A stretch of DNA of 36,912 nt, taken from IMG/VR virus record IMGVR_UViG_3300025138_000127, positions 1 to 36,912 of that record. The stretch is one strand, 5' to 3'. The notes under the pieces are model-generated. The model worked only from the letters and a program-made list of their open reading frames with translations, searched no databases and had not been told where the DNA came from. The position numbers were made by a program, and so were the translations under genes. Positions 13,733 to 35,670 of this stretch are shown in pieces. Position 1 is the stretch's first letter. The number at the start of each line of letters is the position of its first letter. The DNA is from a virus.

Positions 13733-14329
13733 ATGAAAGAAAAAACAGTACAAATAAATAATTTTATAGGTATTTATGATAATTATATCACTAAAGAAGA
13801 ATGTAATAATGCCATTAAATTATATGAATCTCAAAATAATTTTAAAAATACTTTTAGTAGAATATTTGCAGAAAAAGAATCTATTTTAAGAAAACAAGAT
13901 GAACAATTTTTTGCAAACCCAGATACCATAGATATATGGTGGGAAGACTTAAAATCTTTAATGTTTAATTTTGATTTAGCCTGGAATCATTATGTTGAAC
14001 ACACAGGTGCTATGTCTGCTTACGGAGGAATCAAATTTCATTTTACTTCTATGAAAATTCAAAAAACCTTACCTACAGAAGGATATCATATTTGGCATTT
14101 AGAACATGGAAAAGGATTTCATAATGAACCCCGTGCTTTTGTATTTTCTGTTTATTTAAATGATGTAGAAGATGGTGGTGAAACAGAATTTTTAAATCAT
14201 TCAACAAGAGTAAAACCTAAAACTGGAAGAATAGTTATTTGGCCCGCTGCTTTTCCTTACGTACACAGAGGTAATCCACCTTTATCTGGTGAAAAATATA
14301 TTTTAACTTCTTGGATGTTGTTAAGATGA
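13733..14329 (+). CDS. 2OG/Fe(II) oxygenase-like protein, plus strand, HxE variant
   Basis: This 198-aa protein has the double-stranded beta-helix pattern of small prolyl-hydroxylase-like enzymes: YHIWHLEHG, VFSVYLNDVEDGGETEFLNH, VKPKTGRIVIWPAAFPYVHR and YILTSWM. The proximal iron ligands appear as H122-x-E124 instead of the usual H-x-D, with distal H178 and a basic residue K188 in the 2-oxoglutarate position. Glu at this place is tolerated in some family members, but activity is not assured. The ribosome site GTAGGA lies just upstream of the ATG. It is the first of two coupled plus-strand genes inside an otherwise minus-strand late region. Substrate unknown. Confidence 0.75.
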   Translation: MKEKTVQINNFIGIYDNYITKEECNNAIKLYESQNNFKNTFSRIFAEKESILRKQDEQFFANPDTIDIWWEDLKSLMFNFDLAWNHYVEHTGAMSAYGGIKFHFTSMKIQKTLPTEGYHIWHLEHGKGFHNEPRAFVFSVYLNDVEDGGETEFLNHSTRVKPKTGRIVIWPAAFPYVHRGNPPLSGEKYILTSWMLLR

Positions 14330-14877
14330 AACCAGTGTTATTGGATAATATTTTTTCAGAAAAAGAACTTTTTTTTATATATAAAGAAATTGTAGGTGCT
14401 CCAAATTGGTCAGTAGCAGGAAAGGCAAGTGAAATAGAATATCCTTCCAATAAACAATTTTCAAATGCACCTTTATTTAGAGTAAAAACTGAAAATGATA
14501 TATCTAACTATCCGGTTCATTTATATATACAAAGTTTAGTTTTTAGAATGGCAGAAATGCTTGACAAAAAAAATATTGGTATGCAGACTAATATCATAAG
14601 AAGTTGGTTTAACTTAACCTATGAAGGTTCTCCAAATCACTGGTTGCATCAAGATTCCATAAGTCCAACAGCACAAACAGTTTTAATATTTATGACTCCT
14701 ATATGGCAAGATGCTTGGAGAGGATCTTTACATGTTGATGGAGAAGAGTTTAAATTTAAACCTGGAAGCGCGGTAATATTTAATGCAAACGAATTTCACA
14801 CCGGAGAAACTCCAGAAAGCCAAAGCCAAAACTGGCATAGACTTACCTTAAATATTTTATTAGATAGTAATTTATGA
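14326..14877 (+). CDS. 2OG/Fe(II)-dependent oxygenase, plus strand
   Basis: I choose the ATG at 14326, which overlaps the previous stop as ATGA and gives 183 aa. A TTG at 14311 would only add five residues. The iron site is complete: NHWLHQDSIS (H108, D110), FNANEFHTGE (H158) and WHRLTLN (R172), with the core strands VLIFMTPIWQDAWRGSLHVD between. The order and spacing match the minus-strand oxygenase at 9604-10128, but the two are well diverged. Its stop overlaps the stop of the convergent 114-aa gene (14872-14877), with no terminator visible between them. Substrate unknown; protein hydroxylation is a fair guess. Confidence 0.85.
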   Translation: MKPVLLDNIFSEKELFFIYKEIVGAPNWSVAGKASEIEYPSNKQFSNAPLFRVKTENDISNYPVHLYIQSLVFRMAEMLDKKNIGMQTNIIRSWFNLTYEGSPNHWLHQDSISPTAQTVLIFMTPIWQDAWRGSLHVDGEEFKFKPGSAVIFNANEFHTGETPESQSQNWHRLTLNILLDSNL

Positions 14878-16578: not shown

Positions 16579-17409
16579 TTATGCAACGACTTCCCTCCAT
16601 CCAGGAGGATCTATTGGAGCGGAACCGGTATTTATTTCGTTCCAGATAAGAGCATTAGCACTATTTACATTCATAGTCAATCCAAAACCATTAAAGGTAG
16701 CTGTAACGTTAGTAAATGCAGTTTCATTTCCTAATGCTGCTGTTAATGCTATCCCTGTAACATCTACCGGTGTTTTTACGTCAACGGTTAAAGTCCCCAA
16801 ATTAGCACTCATCGCTATACCTGTTACACTAGGAGAAACATCCCCTTGCATTCCAAGGGTACCTAAAGCACCTATCATGAAATTACCAGTGATCATTGCA
16901 TCAGGTGCAGGGTCGACAACACCTAAAGTTAATTGTGCTACGTTTAAAGTATTTGCAACAATAGTTGCATCACCACTAACTTCTTGTGGCGAACCTAAAG
17001 CTGCGCTCATAGCGATCCCAGTAACAGGTGCTGGTACATCAATACCGGGTCTTCCCCAAGAATTTATTCCCCATTGAAGTCTACCCCAACCTGTAGTGTT
17101 AAAGGCATCTACAGTTCCAAGACCCATAGACATTGCATTACCTGTCAGCATAGCATCAGGGCCAGCATCCGCTGTTCCTAAATTTGCCGTCATAGCAATT
17201 CCTGTTATAGGAGGTTCTACTGCAATTATTGTTGTTGGAGTTGTGGTAGCTGTAGTAAGAGGAAGTCCAGTAGGAATAGGTATAACATCTGTTTTAACAG
17301 ATTCATTTCCTAAAGACGCAGTTAAGGCTTGTCCAGTTACAGGAACATTGACATCACCTAATAGGCCCCAAGTACCGAGACCCCAAGTTTGAATATTCCA
17401 TCCTGCCAT
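16579..17409 (-). CDS. repeat-built fibre protein with seven TG..(A/M)..LG units
   Basis: The 276-aa protein starts GWNIQTWGLGTWG and has a second GWGRLQWGINSWG in the middle. In between and after are about seven copies of a 14-residue unit, e.g. PVTGQALTASLGN, PITGIAMTANLGT, PVTGIAMSAALGS, SVTGIAMSANLGT and DVTGIALTAALGN. The units are spaced about 25-55 residues apart and each ends in a small Asp/Pro-rich linker. Such repeats usually build beta-helical or shaft-like trimeric fibres. It sits among fibre genes. No enzymatic motif is seen. Confidence 0.7.
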   Translation of the reverse strand: MAGWNIQTWGLGTWGLLGDVNVPVTGQALTASLGNESVKTDVIPIPTGLPLTTATTTPTTIIAVEPPITGIAMTANLGTADAGPDAMLTGNAMSMGLGTVDAFNTTGWGRLQWGINSWGRPGIDVPAPVTGIAMSAALGSPQEVSGDATIVANTLNVAQLTLGVVDPAPDAMITGNFMIGALGTLGMQGDVSPSVTGIAMSANLGTLTVDVKTPVDVTGIALTAALGNETAFTNVTATFNGFGLTMNVNSANALIWNEINTGSAPIDPPGWREVVA

Positions 17410-17426: not shown

Positions 17427-17873
17427 TTAACCAGAGATTCTTAAAATCGCTGCTGTTGATGTTGGTGCTGGAAACTGAACTGTAAACGTACCTGAAGTAG
17501 CTGTTTTGTCTCCTCCGAAATCTAAAACACAAACTGCAGAGTTAGTAGTAGCAGATGATGTGTTGTAAATTAAAGCTCCTCTTGCTGTCAGTGTAACGTT
17601 TTGAAATGACAGATCAACAAAGTCCGCTCTTGCAACACCAGCTGTTAAAGAAGTTGGTGCATTAACAAGTGCACCGCCACCAGCTGTATAATTTGCTGAC
17701 GTAACTTCGTTAGTTGGTGAAGAAGTTAATAAAGAAGTTGTTGCTGAAGTAAGAGTAGCTGAAGAAGTATAAAGAGCTAACTTATATTTATCACCACCAG
17801 ATTGTTTAAAATTAGAGTCACCCTCTAGTAGTAATTTTTTAAAGTTGTTTGCAATTGCTTGTGTTATAGCCAT
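17427..17873 (-). CDS. structural protein, beta-rich, tail or head decoration
   Basis: This 148-aa protein has a short N-terminal helix (QAIANNFKKLLLEG) followed by a Thr/Ser/Ala-rich beta domain (YKLALYTSSATLTSATTS, ARADFVDLSFQNVTLTARGA, FTVQFPAPTSTAAILRIS). The ribosome site is GGAGAA. The pattern is that of small virion proteins of marine phages. Its neighbours are the gp4/adaptor-type genes upstream and fibre genes downstream, so it probably belongs to the tail. Confidence 0.65.
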   Translation of the reverse strand: MAITQAIANNFKKLLLEGDSNFKQSGGDKYKLALYTSSATLTSATTSLLTSSPTNEVTSANYTAGGGALVNAPTSLTAGVARADFVDLSFQNVTLTARGALIYNTSSATTNSAVCVLDFGGDKTATSGTFTVQFPAPTSTAAILRISG

Positions 17874-26215: not shown

Positions 26216-26487
26216 ATTAAACCTCCCATGCTGACTTTTTTTCTTTTAGTAAATGTTGAAACGTTTGTTGGCTTACCACCAGGATTACCCGCCGCTCTTT
26301 TTCGTTTGACAGCACTCGCCTTTTGCGAGCTTGACATCCGTGTGGCTTTTGCAAGTGGGACGCATTTCGGATACTTCCTTTTCGAGCCTTTGCTTCTCCC
26401 GCAAGGTTGATACTTCCCGTTCTTCTTCGGAGCTCCAATGTCCACCCATTTGTCTTTTACCCATTGTCTTAATCCTTTCTCGGCCAT
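26212..26487 (-). CDS. small basic Cys-containing phage protein (DUF5872-like)
   Basis: This 91-aa protein contains QPCGRSKGSKRKYPKCVPLA, TRMSSSQKASAVKRKRAAGN and PGGKPTNVSTFTKRKK and ends in VSMGGLI. The two cysteines spaced by about 12 residues and the basic stretch recall a domain of unknown function in marine phages and some giant viruses. Two other-frame readings of this DNA are shadows. It is coupled to both neighbours (TAATG at its start, ATGA at its end). Confidence 0.7.
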   Translation of the reverse strand: MAEKGLRQWVKDKWVDIGAPKKNGKYQPCGRSKGSKRKYPKCVPLAKATRMSSSQKASAVKRKRAAGNPGGKPTNVSTFTKRKKVSMGGLI

Positions 26488-26684
26488 TAGACATCAACCA
26501 TCATCGTTAAATCTTCATCAACGATTAGACCTCCGTCAGCGGCTTTTTTTCTTTTACCTTTTTTACCACCTGGAGTAATTTTACCAGAGCACACACCGGA
26601 TGCATACATATTAGCATACGCAGAAGGATAAACTTTAAATTTTCTTTTAGCTGCTGCTTTTCCTTTTGGACATAGTTTAGCCAT
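26487..26684 (-). CDS. small basic protein with CPKGKAAAKRKFKVYPSAYA motif
   Basis: This 65-aa protein has a front part ending SGVCSGKITPGGKKGKRK and a tail AADGGLIVDEDLTMMVDV. The cysteine pattern and the tail GGLI recall the 91-aa neighbour, so they may be related. It starts at TAATG with the stop of the 87-aa gene. Function unknown. Confidence 0.7.
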   Translation of the reverse strand: MAKLCPKGKAAAKRKFKVYPSAYANMYASGVCSGKITPGGKKGKRKKAADGGLIVDEDLTMMVDV

Positions 26685-32739: not shown

Positions 32740-33474
32740 TTACAGTCCTAGTATTGCTGCTAGACCGCCTGATTGTTTATTATCTCTATCAATAACACCT
32801 TTACCAATTAAGATATCTTTTTGTGTAATTTCTCCATCACCTGATAGATCAGGGAAAGATCCTCCAGCTAAAGTAATTCTAGTTTTATCATCTTCAACTA
32901 ATTCTTTAACAACATCCATTCCAGGATTTTTAGCTGTACCCATACTCATTTCATAAAATTCTTTTAGCTCATCTAATGAGTTTGGTTTACGACCTCTTTG
33001 TTTAATAAATTCCATTACAACTTCTTCAATTCTAATTTTAGGATCGATCGATGCTTGATCACTCATAGCTTCTCTTCTGAAACTATCAAAGTCCATAGGC
33101 TCTAAACCTTGTTCTAACATATCAAATCTGTATTTATTATATTCGTCTTCTAATAAAGGATCTCTATCTGCCATTTGCATGATGCCTGAATCTTGAGCCC
33201 TGACTTGTTCACCCATAGGCACGCCTTGGTCTTTCATTAATTCAATTGTATCTAAGTCTTCTTCTTGAAACTCTTCAACTTCATCACCTTGTGCATAAAA
33301 ATTTCTCATAATTCCTCCATTAGCCTCTTTGGTTCTTTTAGACTCTGTTGGTCTAAAGATATCCATTTCAATAATATTTATATTATTTCTTTTTATGTAA
33401 TCAGTCAAGGACTCTCCTGGTTCTACTCCTAATCCCATTTCATAAGCATCAATTACATCTTCATAATATTCCAT
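32740..33474 (-). CDS. EF-hand-bearing phage protein, function unknown
   Basis: The 244-aa acidic protein has one clear EF-hand-like calcium loop, DLSGDGEITQKD (about residues 211-222), followed by ILIGKGVID. It ends SGGLAAILGL. A helical middle (DPLLEDEYNKYRFDMLEQGL) precedes it. It sits between terminase (TAATG overlap) and the 702-aa gene, which starts right after its stop. Calcium binding is likely from the loop; the biological role is not known. Confidence 0.65.
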   Translation of the reverse strand: MEYYEDVIDAYEMGLGVEPGESLTDYIKRNNINIIEMDIFRPTESKRTKEANGGIMRNFYAQGDEVEEFQEEDLDTIELMKDQGVPMGEQVRAQDSGIMQMADRDPLLEDEYNKYRFDMLEQGLEPMDFDSFRREAMSDQASIDPKIRIEEVVMEFIKQRGRKPNSLDELKEFYEMSMGTAKNPGMDVVKELVEDDKTRITLAGGSFPDLSGDGEITQKDILIGKGVIDRDNKQSGGLAAILGL

Positions 33475-34955
33475 TAGTAATACGTCCTCTGTTGTGGAGG
33501 CATTTTTTCCTCCTCGTAATCTTCAGGGTGATTTATTAAACCTCCCTGTCTAAATCTCATTACAGCTTGAGTCATTGAGTCCACTAGATCATCATGGTCT
33601 CCATAAGGAAAAGCTGCACATTCCTCGATGACTTCTTGTGCGAAGTCCATATCTTTGGGCGCCCATATCAGTCCCGACTCAAAGAGCGGAGATACTGCGT
33701 TTACCCTCGTGTGTTTATCGTTACCACGAGATGGTGAAAAATTTATAACAGGAATACCCATCTTACGCAACTCATAAGTTAAGGGAAGCCCTGATGCCTT
33801 ACTCTCGATTATAACTGTTTCAGGATTCCAGTAGCCGTATTGCTCCATTGCAATACGCCGGAGTTCAGGGAATTCATATCTACCTTTTAATGCATCAACC
33901 AATATTAAACTTGGTGGTGAGTCTTCATTTTCTTGAAACACGCCCCAGGTTGTAATAGCTGAGTAGTCGGCAGTTTCTTTTTTCATAAAAGCTGTATCGT
34001 AAGATTGTATAATATGTTGAAGCGGTGGCATCTCATCCTCTTCCCAATTCTTCCACCATTCACGTTTTATTAATGCACCTTCTTCTGAAGTAGGATTTTG
34101 CATATACTGTGCATTCCATTTAGTCAGGGGAATACTAGCTTTAACAGATTCTAAATCATCTAACTTCCAATACTCTGGCCAAACAGGTTTACCTGATGGC
34201 AGGATAGCAGGAAATTCTACAACTTCCCATTGATCAGCTTTAACTCCTTTTTGAGCATTTAATAATCTACCTGTTAAATCTTTTTGATTCCATCTTGTCA
34301 TGATAACAACAATTGATCCACCAGGTTGAAGACGTTGACGTGGACCAGAAGTATACCACTCATAAGTTCTATCAAGAGCTTGATTGTTCATGGCATCTTG
34401 TTCAGTATGTGGGTCATCAATAATTAGTAGATCAGCTCCCCGTCCTGTAATAGCAGAACCAACACCGGCAGCATAATATTCACCACCTTGTTCTGTTTCC
34501 CATTTACCAGCAGCTTGAGAATCTGGATTAAGTCTAGTTTTAAAAACTTGTTTATATTCTGGTGAGTCCATCAAAGATTTAGCCTTACGACCAAACCTTA
34601 CAGATAATTCAGTTGTGTTAGTTGATTGAATAATTTTTAGTTTAGGATTTCTACCAACCATCCATGCAGGTAAAAGATAAGAACCAAATTCAGACTTAGT
34701 ATGTCTGGGTGGCATATTGATAATTAATCTTTTAATTTTACCTTGAGCAAGTCTATCAAACTTATCAGCAATTTTTTTATGATGGGAGCCTTCAATAAAA
34801 TCAGGCCAAACATGTTTTACAAAATCCATAAAGTTATTTTGTATACCAGCGGTCTTTTTCTTTTCACCATACTGATTAGCCAATAAGGAAAATTGTCTCC
34901 TCACATCTGCAGGTAACTTATCAAAGTTCTTTAGTTTATCTTTATCTATCTTCAT
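33474..34955 (-). CDS. terL: terminase large subunit
   Basis: The product has 493 aa. The ATPase domain has a P-loop variant PPRHTKS (82-88), Walker B LLIIDDPHTE (176-185) and coupling motif IVVIMTRW (215-222). The RNase H-like nuclease domain follows with QSYDTAF (D320), LVDALKGRYEF (353-362), VIIESKASG (381-389) and FPYGDHDDLVD (449-459), supplying the acidic metal ligands. It packages DNA through the portal and cuts it. No small subunit is seen beside it. The start ATG lacks a clear ribosome site in an A/T-rich leader. It is the first gene of the leftward late series. Confidence 0.95.
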   Translation of the reverse strand: MKIDKDKLKNFDKLPADVRRQFSLLANQYGEKKKTAGIQNNFMDFVKHVWPDFIEGSHHKKIADKFDRLAQGKIKRLIINMPPRHTKSEFGSYLLPAWMVGRNPKLKIIQSTNTTELSVRFGRKAKSLMDSPEYKQVFKTRLNPDSQAAGKWETEQGGEYYAAGVGSAITGRGADLLIIDDPHTEQDAMNNQALDRTYEWYTSGPRQRLQPGGSIVVIMTRWNQKDLTGRLLNAQKGVKADQWEVVEFPAILPSGKPVWPEYWKLDDLESVKASIPLTKWNAQYMQNPTSEEGALIKREWWKNWEEDEMPPLQHIIQSYDTAFMKKETADYSAITTWGVFQENEDSPPSLILVDALKGRYEFPELRRIAMEQYGYWNPETVIIESKASGLPLTYELRKMGIPVINFSPSRGNDKHTRVNAVSPLFESGLIWAPKDMDFAQEVIEECAAFPYGDHDDLVDSMTQAVMRFRQGGLINHPEDYEEEKMPPQQRTYY

Positions 34956-35139
34956 TTGAAAAATTTTTTCTAGAAAATTTTTACACTATTTTTTCAAAAA
35001 GTAAAAAAGTATTATAAGGCTTTAAATGTATGAAAGCTGGCATAAATACAAACTATTGGGACCCCTTTTATAAAAATAAAAAAACCCTTTTGTAAAAAAA
35101 TTTAAAAACCCGACTCGCGTTGGTACCTCTATCAATCAT
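34956..35139. promoter_or_regulatory. AT-rich gap upstream of terminase
   Basis: No gene is seen here. It contains runs of A and T and, on the minus strand, a TATAAT box at 35016-35011 without a recognisable -35 at proper distance, which may be a late-type or factor-dependent promoter for terminase. A GGGACCCC element (35059-35066) stands between two A/T runs. A packaging or origin site could lie here, but nothing in the sequence proves it. Confidence 0.3.
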
Positions 35140-35340
35140 ATGAAACCGGCTGCGTTCCGTGCACGTACTAACAGCCAGTCAAACTCCAGGTTGCTACCTT
35201 GCGGTCACTGCTTACGTACAGGGAAATGCCATCGGCAAGATTTGGACGCCCTTGAGCTTTCAGATAAAATTCTCTTGATGCCTGGCGCACAACCTATGCT
35301 TGTATGCAAAAATCACATAGGGTGCGCGCCAGACTACTAG
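35140..35340 (+). CDS. possible 66-aa zinc-ribbon-like protein on the plus strand
   Basis: A plus-strand frame in a GC-richer island encodes 66 aa with LPCGHCLRTGKCHRQ (C-x2-C-x5-C-H) and VCKNHIGC near the end, a plausible metal site. The frame stays open upstream to 35080, but ATG 35140 is the first start and has no clear ribosome site. Other genes around are on the minus strand. The alternative is a structured RNA: part of the frame is a 17-bp inverted repeat, and RNA genes often show as GC islands in AT-rich genomes. Confidence 0.4.
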   Translation: MKPAAFRARTNSQSNSRLLPCGHCLRTGKCHRQDLDALELSDKILLMPGAQPMLVCKNHIGCAPDY

Positions 35341-35343
35341 TCT
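35282..35343. repeat. large inverted repeat (17-bp arms) and adjoining palindrome
   Basis: Arms 35282-35298 (CTGGCGCACAACCTATG) and 35316-35332 (CATAGGGTGCGCGCCAG) pair at 15 of 17 positions around a 17-nt loop. AGACTA-C-TAGTCT (35331-35343) is a second perfect dyad overlapping its right end. There is no T-tail on either strand. It lies 16 nt from the end of the leftward 85-aa gene. Confidence 0.7.
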
Positions 35344-35358
35344 AACAGAACGTAGTAT

Positions 35359-35616
35359 TTAATCGAGCAATACCATGTAAGCCTCTGCATTATGTTGTCT
35401 GAAGTAATCCAAGCCTCTTCTAACTTGGTTCCATAGTTTAGAGTCGCCTGCTGATTTACCAGGCTGCTTGTCCTCTAGTGTTGCTGCTAACTCATTGATA
35501 AAGATATCATCATGTATCTTTGCCTCGTGAGGTGTAAGTAAGCAAGACTCTCCATTGAATCTATTCTTACGTTCCTCTGTTGCGTCAATCATTGTTTCTT
35601 GTTTTAGTTTTCCCAT
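35359..35616 (-). CDS. small early-region protein, function unknown
   Basis: The 85-aa product starts after the conserved leader with GAAAGG. The sequence reads as a short fold (HEAKIHDDIFINELAATLED, LWNQVRRGLDYFRQHNAEAY) ending MVLLD. It has its own strong promoter in front. It is the last of the early-type series before the gap. No family recognised. Confidence 0.65.
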   Translation of the reverse strand: MGKLKQETMIDATEERKNRFNGESCLLTPHEAKIHDDIFINELAATLEDKQPGKSAGDSKLWNQVRRGLDYFRQHNAEAYMVLLD

Positions 35617-35641: not shown

Positions 35642-35670
35642 ACTATATCCTATATTCTATGCGTTGTCAA
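35642..35670 (-). promoter_or_regulatory. sigma70 promoter of the 85-aa gene
   Basis: On the minus strand, TTGACA (35670-35665), exactly 17 nt, TATAGT (35647-35642). The -35 is read in the last codons of the 110-aa gene. Its leader shares 18 identical bases (ATACATAACAGAAAGGTA, 35638-35621) with the promoter at 36273. Confidence 0.85.

Follow-up and report, generated by a model that had tools for sequence, protein, structure and literature searches.

The locus and its phage

The window analysed here, i.e., the whole stretch of 36,912 nt, is an incomplete linear virus record from IMG/VR. Its large terminase is 95% identical to gp40 of HTVC027P, a lytic Pelagibacter (SAR11) phage of the HTVC023P type (PMC12753301), and by this sequence relationship the window is an HTVC027P-like SAR11 phage, the host of the RNA-bearing phages being assigned from two cultured relatives. 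On the minus strand, a small gene without any match in Pfam or PHROG is followed by a strong hairpin, a small structured RNA, a T-rich run and the terminase gene (Table 1). No tRNA or tmRNA was found in a search of the window. Elsewhere in it (13733-14877, plus strand), two AT-rich ORFs oriented opposite to their neighbours resemble, by eye, 2-oxoglutarate/iron dioxygenases.

Table 1. Features of the window around the RNA, and modules of the arrays found in related phages
Feature	Position or sequence	Strand	Basis or remark
Terminase large subunit (terL)	33474..34955	-	next gene downstream, on the RNA's strand
T-rich run GGGTTTTTAAATTTTTTTAC	35092..35111	-	3' of the RNA; possible transcript end, weak here
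Flavobacterium-1 RNA (RF02976)	35144..35259	-	cmscan and covariation in 39 relatives
P1	35181..35259 (35259-35250 pairs with 35190-35181)	-	closes the three-way junction
P2 with P2.1 hairpin (35237-35227)	35214..35249	-	covariation alignment
P3, GNRA tetraloop GCAA at 35202-35199	35193..35211	-	covariation alignment
P4 hairpin	35145..35179	-	8/9 pairs changed on both sides, 100% paired
Apical loop GUGCAC, a palindrome; symmetric kissing loop proposed	35159..35164	-	palindrome counts and tree
Strong hairpin directly 5' of the RNA	35280..35334	-	z -5.6; 17-bp inverted repeat of the preliminary description
85-aa ORF	35359..35616	-	gene preceding the RNA
Promoter-like TTGACA-17-TATAGT	35642..35670	-	11/12 match; consensus match alone
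Rejected 66-aa 'CGHC' ORF	35140..35340	+	antisense to the RNA; stops in relatives
M2	CTGATCCCT...TGGGATCAG		closing-stem module
M3	AACACTATAACA...GTAGCATAGTG		module between M2 and M4
M4	TTATTTGCTGG...CCTGCTAATAA		closing-stem module before RF02976

A preliminary description of the sequence had singled out positions 35080-35345 as a GC-rich island. The distinct composition is real (47.2% GC at 35126-35375 vs. 34.9% over the whole record) but not unique in the genome, two further 250-nt segments being similarly GC-rich (47.6% at 26251-26500 and 46.4% at 17001-17250). The 17-bp inverted repeat noted there is a separate long hairpin (-33.4 kcal/mol, none of 200 shuffles being as stable), which stays with the RNA in the terL-adjacent relatives L006, L019, L029, L070, L086, L088, L109, and L111. 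The 13-nt palindrome AGACTACTAGTCT (35331-35343) and the T-rich run were likewise recovered. At this run no terminator-like stem or intrinsic terminator was found in the window, where it is no more stable than its shuffled versions (z +0.8); in some relatives a short perfect stem can be seen by eye at its position. The promoter-like site precedes the 85-aa ORF, the hairpin and the RNA, and at a looser threshold 2 such sites are found vs. 2.1 expected in shuffles. Past the 85-aa ORF, the fragment ATACTACGTTCTGTTAGACTAG (35331-35358) corresponds to the 3' end of another small gene, an ORF of 89-90 aa found in L006, L019, and L070; as judged from this match, the fragment is a recombination scar adjoining the RNA block.

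The plus-strand frame with CGHC...C and C...C motifs, put forward earlier as a zinc micro-protein, does exist and is open in the window, but only because the RNA has GUAAGCAGUGA there, most relatives having GUUAGCGAUGA. In the matching antisense frame, a stop codon lies within five codons of the conserved core in 83 of the 89 distinct relatives, and the ATG start is kept in three. No conserved open frame carrying the cysteine motif is thus found and, the frame being antisense to a covarying RNA, a zinc-binding micro-protein is refuted, with next to no probability left to it.

A covarying RNA with a palindromic loop

Among all 4227 Rfam families, cmscan returned a sole match over the 36.9 kb, namely RF02976, 'Flavobacterium-1 RNA' (96.9 bits, E 7e-18). 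The match spans the entire model (positions 1-121 of 121) and lies above the curated gathering score of 58.9, so that sequence, length and fold of the window RNA agree with the family end to end; in Rfam, RF02976 is an sRNA candidate with function unassigned. The conserved unit, including a TATGA tail, covers 35136-35262 on the minus strand.

The structured RNA that had been proposed as an alternative to the micro-protein is thereby identified, and the covariation analysis suggested for it gives strong support to the helices over 39 window-type relatives. In their alignment 99.5% of the cells are paired in the proposed structure and 14 pairs have changed on both sides; none of 500 shuffles equals the observed covariation, and slid-structure controls pair in 25-41%. 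G-U pairs make up about 173 of 1292 summed cells, two positions being G-U in all 38 sequences. Since these conserved pairs would read as A.C mismatches on the opposite strand, the RNA is encoded by the minus strand. Folding by itself cannot pick the strand, as both strands of the whole 286 nt are more stable than shuffles to a similar degree (z -2.2 and -2.5); with the RNA unit alone at z -0.3, covariation is needed.

The fold is a three-way junction made of P1, P2 with its hairpin P2.1, and P3, followed by the P4 hairpin. P1 comprises nine pairs, of which three have changed on both sides, and is 100% paired in type A relatives; in L020, L046, and L086 its sequence is different and its pairing, by eye, equal. 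The P2 region harbors a conserved internal loop, AAUC / UUUCCC, as well as a position that is mismatched throughout, being C.U in 64 and A.G in 18 of 82 distinct sequences and never Watson-Crick. In P3, the outer pair has turned from GC to CG in 13 of 38 sequences and an inner pair from CG to GC in seven, and a GNRA loop is found in the window and in many relatives. The internal loop of P3 (35211-35193, minus strand) consists of three bases, then GA opposite UA, between two short stems, and looks kink-turn-like by eye in many, though not all, relatives. A likeness to SRP RNA or a k-turn, weighed by eye, was set aside, the pattern varying among relatives.

At the tip of P4, a hexamer palindrome is found in 82 of 84 distinct sequences, either GTGCAC (33), GTCGAC (16), TGATCA (29), or TGGCCA (4), as counted by pattern; of the two exceptions, one is truncated and the other, L020, is full-length without a hexamer palindrome. 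When this GC-rich stretch is shuffled by mononucleotides, 15% of the shuffles contain a perfect palindrome of at least 8 nt, and the test came after the pattern had caught attention. What counts at P4, beyond the presence of a palindrome, is the recurrent switching from one palindrome to another at a single position. On a tree built without the loop columns, whose branches are mostly weakly supported, the central dinucleotide switched between GC and CG at least nine times among window-type sequences with zero single-change intermediates; recombination could mimic such repeated switches. As the loop bases are unable to pair within one chain, pairing between two copies is indicated, and the analysis suggests an RNA homodimer formed through the palindromic loop. 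Both this loop and the always-mismatched position in P2 are new findings on RF02976.

Similar loops are known from much larger RNAs. In GOLLD and ROOL, which are large multimeric RNAs associated with phages, and in OLE, a dimeric RNA of bacteria, one loop palindrome is exchanged for another by double changes; a cryo-EM study read the GGCC/GAUC and GC/CG switches as a sign of symmetric kissing loops joining identical chains (PMC12286853). The window RNA shows identical GAUC/GGCC and GC/CG switches. In contrast to their several hundred nucleotides, it is about 125 nt long, and its multimer is a proposed one; the GOLLD, ROOL, and OLE models gave no match in the full Rfam scan of the window.

Phage distribution, neighbourhoods, and arrays

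The core of the RNA was found by pattern search on at least 114 IMG/VR viral contigs, which are fragments; some searches used exact patterns, by which divergent members are missed. The core pattern matched four times in 84,980 cellular genomes; three of these matches (L117, L119, L120) are due to chance and lack any Rfam match. The real one (L118) lies on KB911123.1, a 6.6-kb contig of the single-cell assembly of Flavobacterium sp. SCGC AAA160-P02. This contig is phage-like: compared with their HTVC027P counterparts, its terminase small subunit is 73% and its GP88 protein 87% identical. It may stem from an infecting phage or from contamination. The RNA was in none of 165 further Flavobacterium genomes searched (one of 166 overall) and in none of 385 alphaproteobacterial genomes searched for host copies. 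RF02976 is a phage RNA; its name, which implies Flavobacterium and probably goes back to this contig, is misleading, the model itself being unaffected.

Exactly one copy is present in each of 16 RNA-bearing records, several of them 47-67 kb long, and the window has one within the 36.9 kb of its incomplete record. The neighbourhoods are diverse. In the window and roughly ten close relatives, the RNA is upstream of terL; elsewhere it is flanked by a small gene and a lysis peptidase or by a 337-aa gene and a GP88 gene, comes behind two small genes, or adjoins nuclease genes. At several loci other than that of the window, the stop codon of a small gene immediately precedes it. The phages with the lysis locus encode a homologue (32% identical) of the window's 1331-aa protein, which means that the loci differ within related phages. 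In HTVC027P (MN698241), the RNA (17873-17753, minus strand) lies 2.6 kb from terL on the opposite strand, in a divergent intergenic region, and the site upstream of terL is empty, the block missing there. Two related complete phage genomes, HTVC023P and 023Pt_psg01, lack the RNA. In the latter, the small gene and the M15 peptidase abut, leaving the lysis-locus site empty, and L093 and L010 carry about 165 extra nt at this locus, consisting of a promoter-like site (TTGCAT-17-TAGGAT, by eye), the RNA and the TATGA tail. In both junction comparisons (023Pt_psg01 vs. L093/L010 and HTVC027P vs. the window), the RNA is thus inserted between genes that abut in the sister phage, as in a moron.

In many relatives, RF02976 is the last element of an array composed of M2, M3, M4, and RF02976. 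This order is intact in at least 34 arrays, with M2 or M4 sometimes repeated, and M2 and M3 can each be found on at least 120 viral contigs, these module counts being lower bounds. Arrays occur, for example, in HTVC027P (L116:5718-6120, 3' end at 17753), L032, L037, L071, and L118; the one of HTVC027P, 403 nt long, folds with z -4.5, none of 100 shuffles being as stable. The upstream modules are structured RNAs that had gone undescribed, and no credible further family was found for them in Rfam. Promoter-like sites matching at least 11 of 12 positions stand upstream of 21% of the arrays in sense orientation, vs. 5% in antisense and 1% in shuffled sequence; at 10 of 12 the two strands are equal (30% and 31%). 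The window has RF02976 and its hairpin and no other module. Its close relatives L006 and L111 have an M2-M3-M4 array without RF02976 elsewhere in the phage, and at least 67 occurrences of RF02976, among the matches listed, are without any of the three modules.

M2 and M4 are conserved closing stems, or 'sockets', that enclose hypervariable interiors. Among the matches listed (loci L002-L330), 303 distinct interiors form 188 similar pairs within the same socket and 81 across sockets on the plus strand, vs. 0 on the minus strand or after shuffling. Ten interior families were found in both sockets and, on this sequence similarity, payload RNAs are swapped between the M2 and M4 stems. Compensatory changes are seen at 8 of the 27 pairs in the largest payload family, whose loop variants (GCCCGGGC, GCCTAGGC, GCTCGAGC, GTCCGGAC, ACCGCGGT, GATGCATC, and GGCTAGCC) are, as read by hand, different palindromes at one place. 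One M3 family likewise has GGATCC, GAGCTC, GGTACC, GATATC, or AGATCT as its loop in 24 of 26 sequences. Variable palindromes were also searched for automatically on gapped alignments, which recovered the M3 case and a weaker payload case and missed both the largest payload family and RF02976. In each type of module, hexamer palindromes are more frequent than in dinucleotide shuffles, the sequences not being independent of each other. Loops that vary yet stay palindromic, in the first payload family, in M3 and in P4 of RF02976, are as would be expected of symmetric kissing loops. A palindrome, TTTAGAATGATTCTAAA, often doubled, recurs 3' of arrays (L008, L018, L032, and others), where CAAGC-rich repeats can also be seen before the next promoter-like site.

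Role of the RNA

The family, the strand, the covarying fold, the distribution among phages, the single copy in the scanned records, the variable position and the empty sites are established. For an RNA that is single-copy, independent of position and structurally conserved, and that sister phages can do without, the best explanation is an accessory RNA acting in trans. As far as can be judged from sequence, the minus-strand unit 35262-35136 would encode a small non-coding RNA belonging to RF02976 and be an accessory 'RNA moron' whose product acts in trans as a homodimer, and we give this account somewhat better than an even chance of being correct. The block would be gained and lost whole, at varying intergenic positions. 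In the window, it would be transcribed together with the upstream 85-aa gene from the promoter-like site, after which two copies would pair via their P4 loops; the invariant AAUC/UUUCCC internal loop and the three-way junction would bind a host or phage target, and such binding may serve takeover of the host or counter-defence.

The main rival is a cis role between early and late genes, in which an element of the untranslated stretch separating the early operon from terL would terminate, process or stabilise the transcript coming from upstream, or allow read-on into the late genes. The put antiterminator RNA of HK022, i.e., phage RNA hairpins ahead of an operon, is the model for such a role. 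The window fits it, as the RNA shares the coding strand with the promoter-driven small gene ahead of it and with terL after it and is followed by T-rich DNA, and so do the loci where the RNA comes directly after the stop codon of a small gene. However, RF02976 also occurs without a downstream gene on its strand: at the lysis locus it faces a convergent gene, leaving no downstream gene to control, and at the divergent HTVC027P locus the next gene has its own promoter-like site. Sister phages moreover do without the RNA at identical junctions, and a cis element is considered unlikely, although it is the strongest of the competing explanations. A DNA-level signal, i.e., a packaging site, replication origin or recombination hot spot that forms hairpins by chance, would suit the terL-adjacent copies, the palindromes and hairpins typical of such sites and the exchange of the block between phages. 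The preliminary description had indeed seen the island as the natural place for a packaging or replication signal beside the terminase. This is not supported, as the RNA is mobile and single-copy and the matching site is empty in sisters: its position relative to terL varies, the copy of HTVC027P lies 2.6 kb off on the other strand despite the 95% identical terminase, and two related complete genomes are without it. With G-U pairs conserved on one strand alone, a DNA signal is very improbable. The pRNA of phi29, which is about 120 nt long, phage-encoded and assembled through loop-loop pairing, resembles the window RNA in size, in origin and in the pairing proposed here. Unlike phi29 pRNA, which has two complementary loops, RF02976 has one self-palindromic loop and no fixed place relative to packaging genes; the prohead RNA family gave no match in the full Rfam scan of the window.

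The arrays raise two further possibilities. RF02976 could be a 3' domain released by processing from a longer non-coding RNA with several modules, the window having kept the last of these and one hairpin. The fixed order of the modules and the folding of the HTVC027P array as a unit speak for it, but the many copies of the RNA without modules and the arrays of L006 and L111, which sit apart from RF02976, indicate that RF02976 can act alone, and we regard a processed domain as decidedly unlikely, if less so than a DNA signal. Tentatively, and with a probability well short of even that still exceeds that of the cis element, RF02976 may be the terminal module of an RNA system of SAR11-type phages with socketed, swappable payloads and self-complementary loops, whose array transcripts self-assemble. 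Each transcript would join its own copies through several sequence-specific kissing loops, and the assemblies would perhaps sequester or organise infection components or evade a host sensor; they would be nature's equivalent of engineered RNA nanostars and condensates, or a counterpart of the GOLLD/ROOL cages. The copy of the window would be a module moved from an array to the terminase locus. Arrays of swappable self-complementary RNA modules, if confirmed, would represent a novel type of genetic organisation in phages.

SAR11 bacteria outnumber every other bacterial group in the surface ocean, and the phages that infect them rank among the most abundant viruses. In the literature searched, which takes in no subscription journals, no non-coding RNA of SAR11 phages is reported. 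The trans-acting homodimer leads to a prediction from the loop covariation, namely that the dimer is lost, then restored, by paired mutations. With the orphan Rfam family now tied to a cultured phage-host pair, HTVC027P and HTCC1062, and infection RNA-seq published for this phage (PMC12753301), expression and function of RF02976 are directly testable. The text on these RNA-seq data covers coding genes, and gp33 and gp34, which peak at 6-9 h, are set apart in it as highly expressed (PMC12753301). Both genes lie just downstream of the HTVC027P copy of the RNA, on the same strand, and this neighbourhood is infection-regulated. The stretch L116:6196-7116 corresponds to gp34 and gp33 of HTVC027P, the unusual 'extra cluster 2' of this phage (PMC12753301), and the peptidase C33 label on gp34, a protein of 46 aa, looks doubtful.
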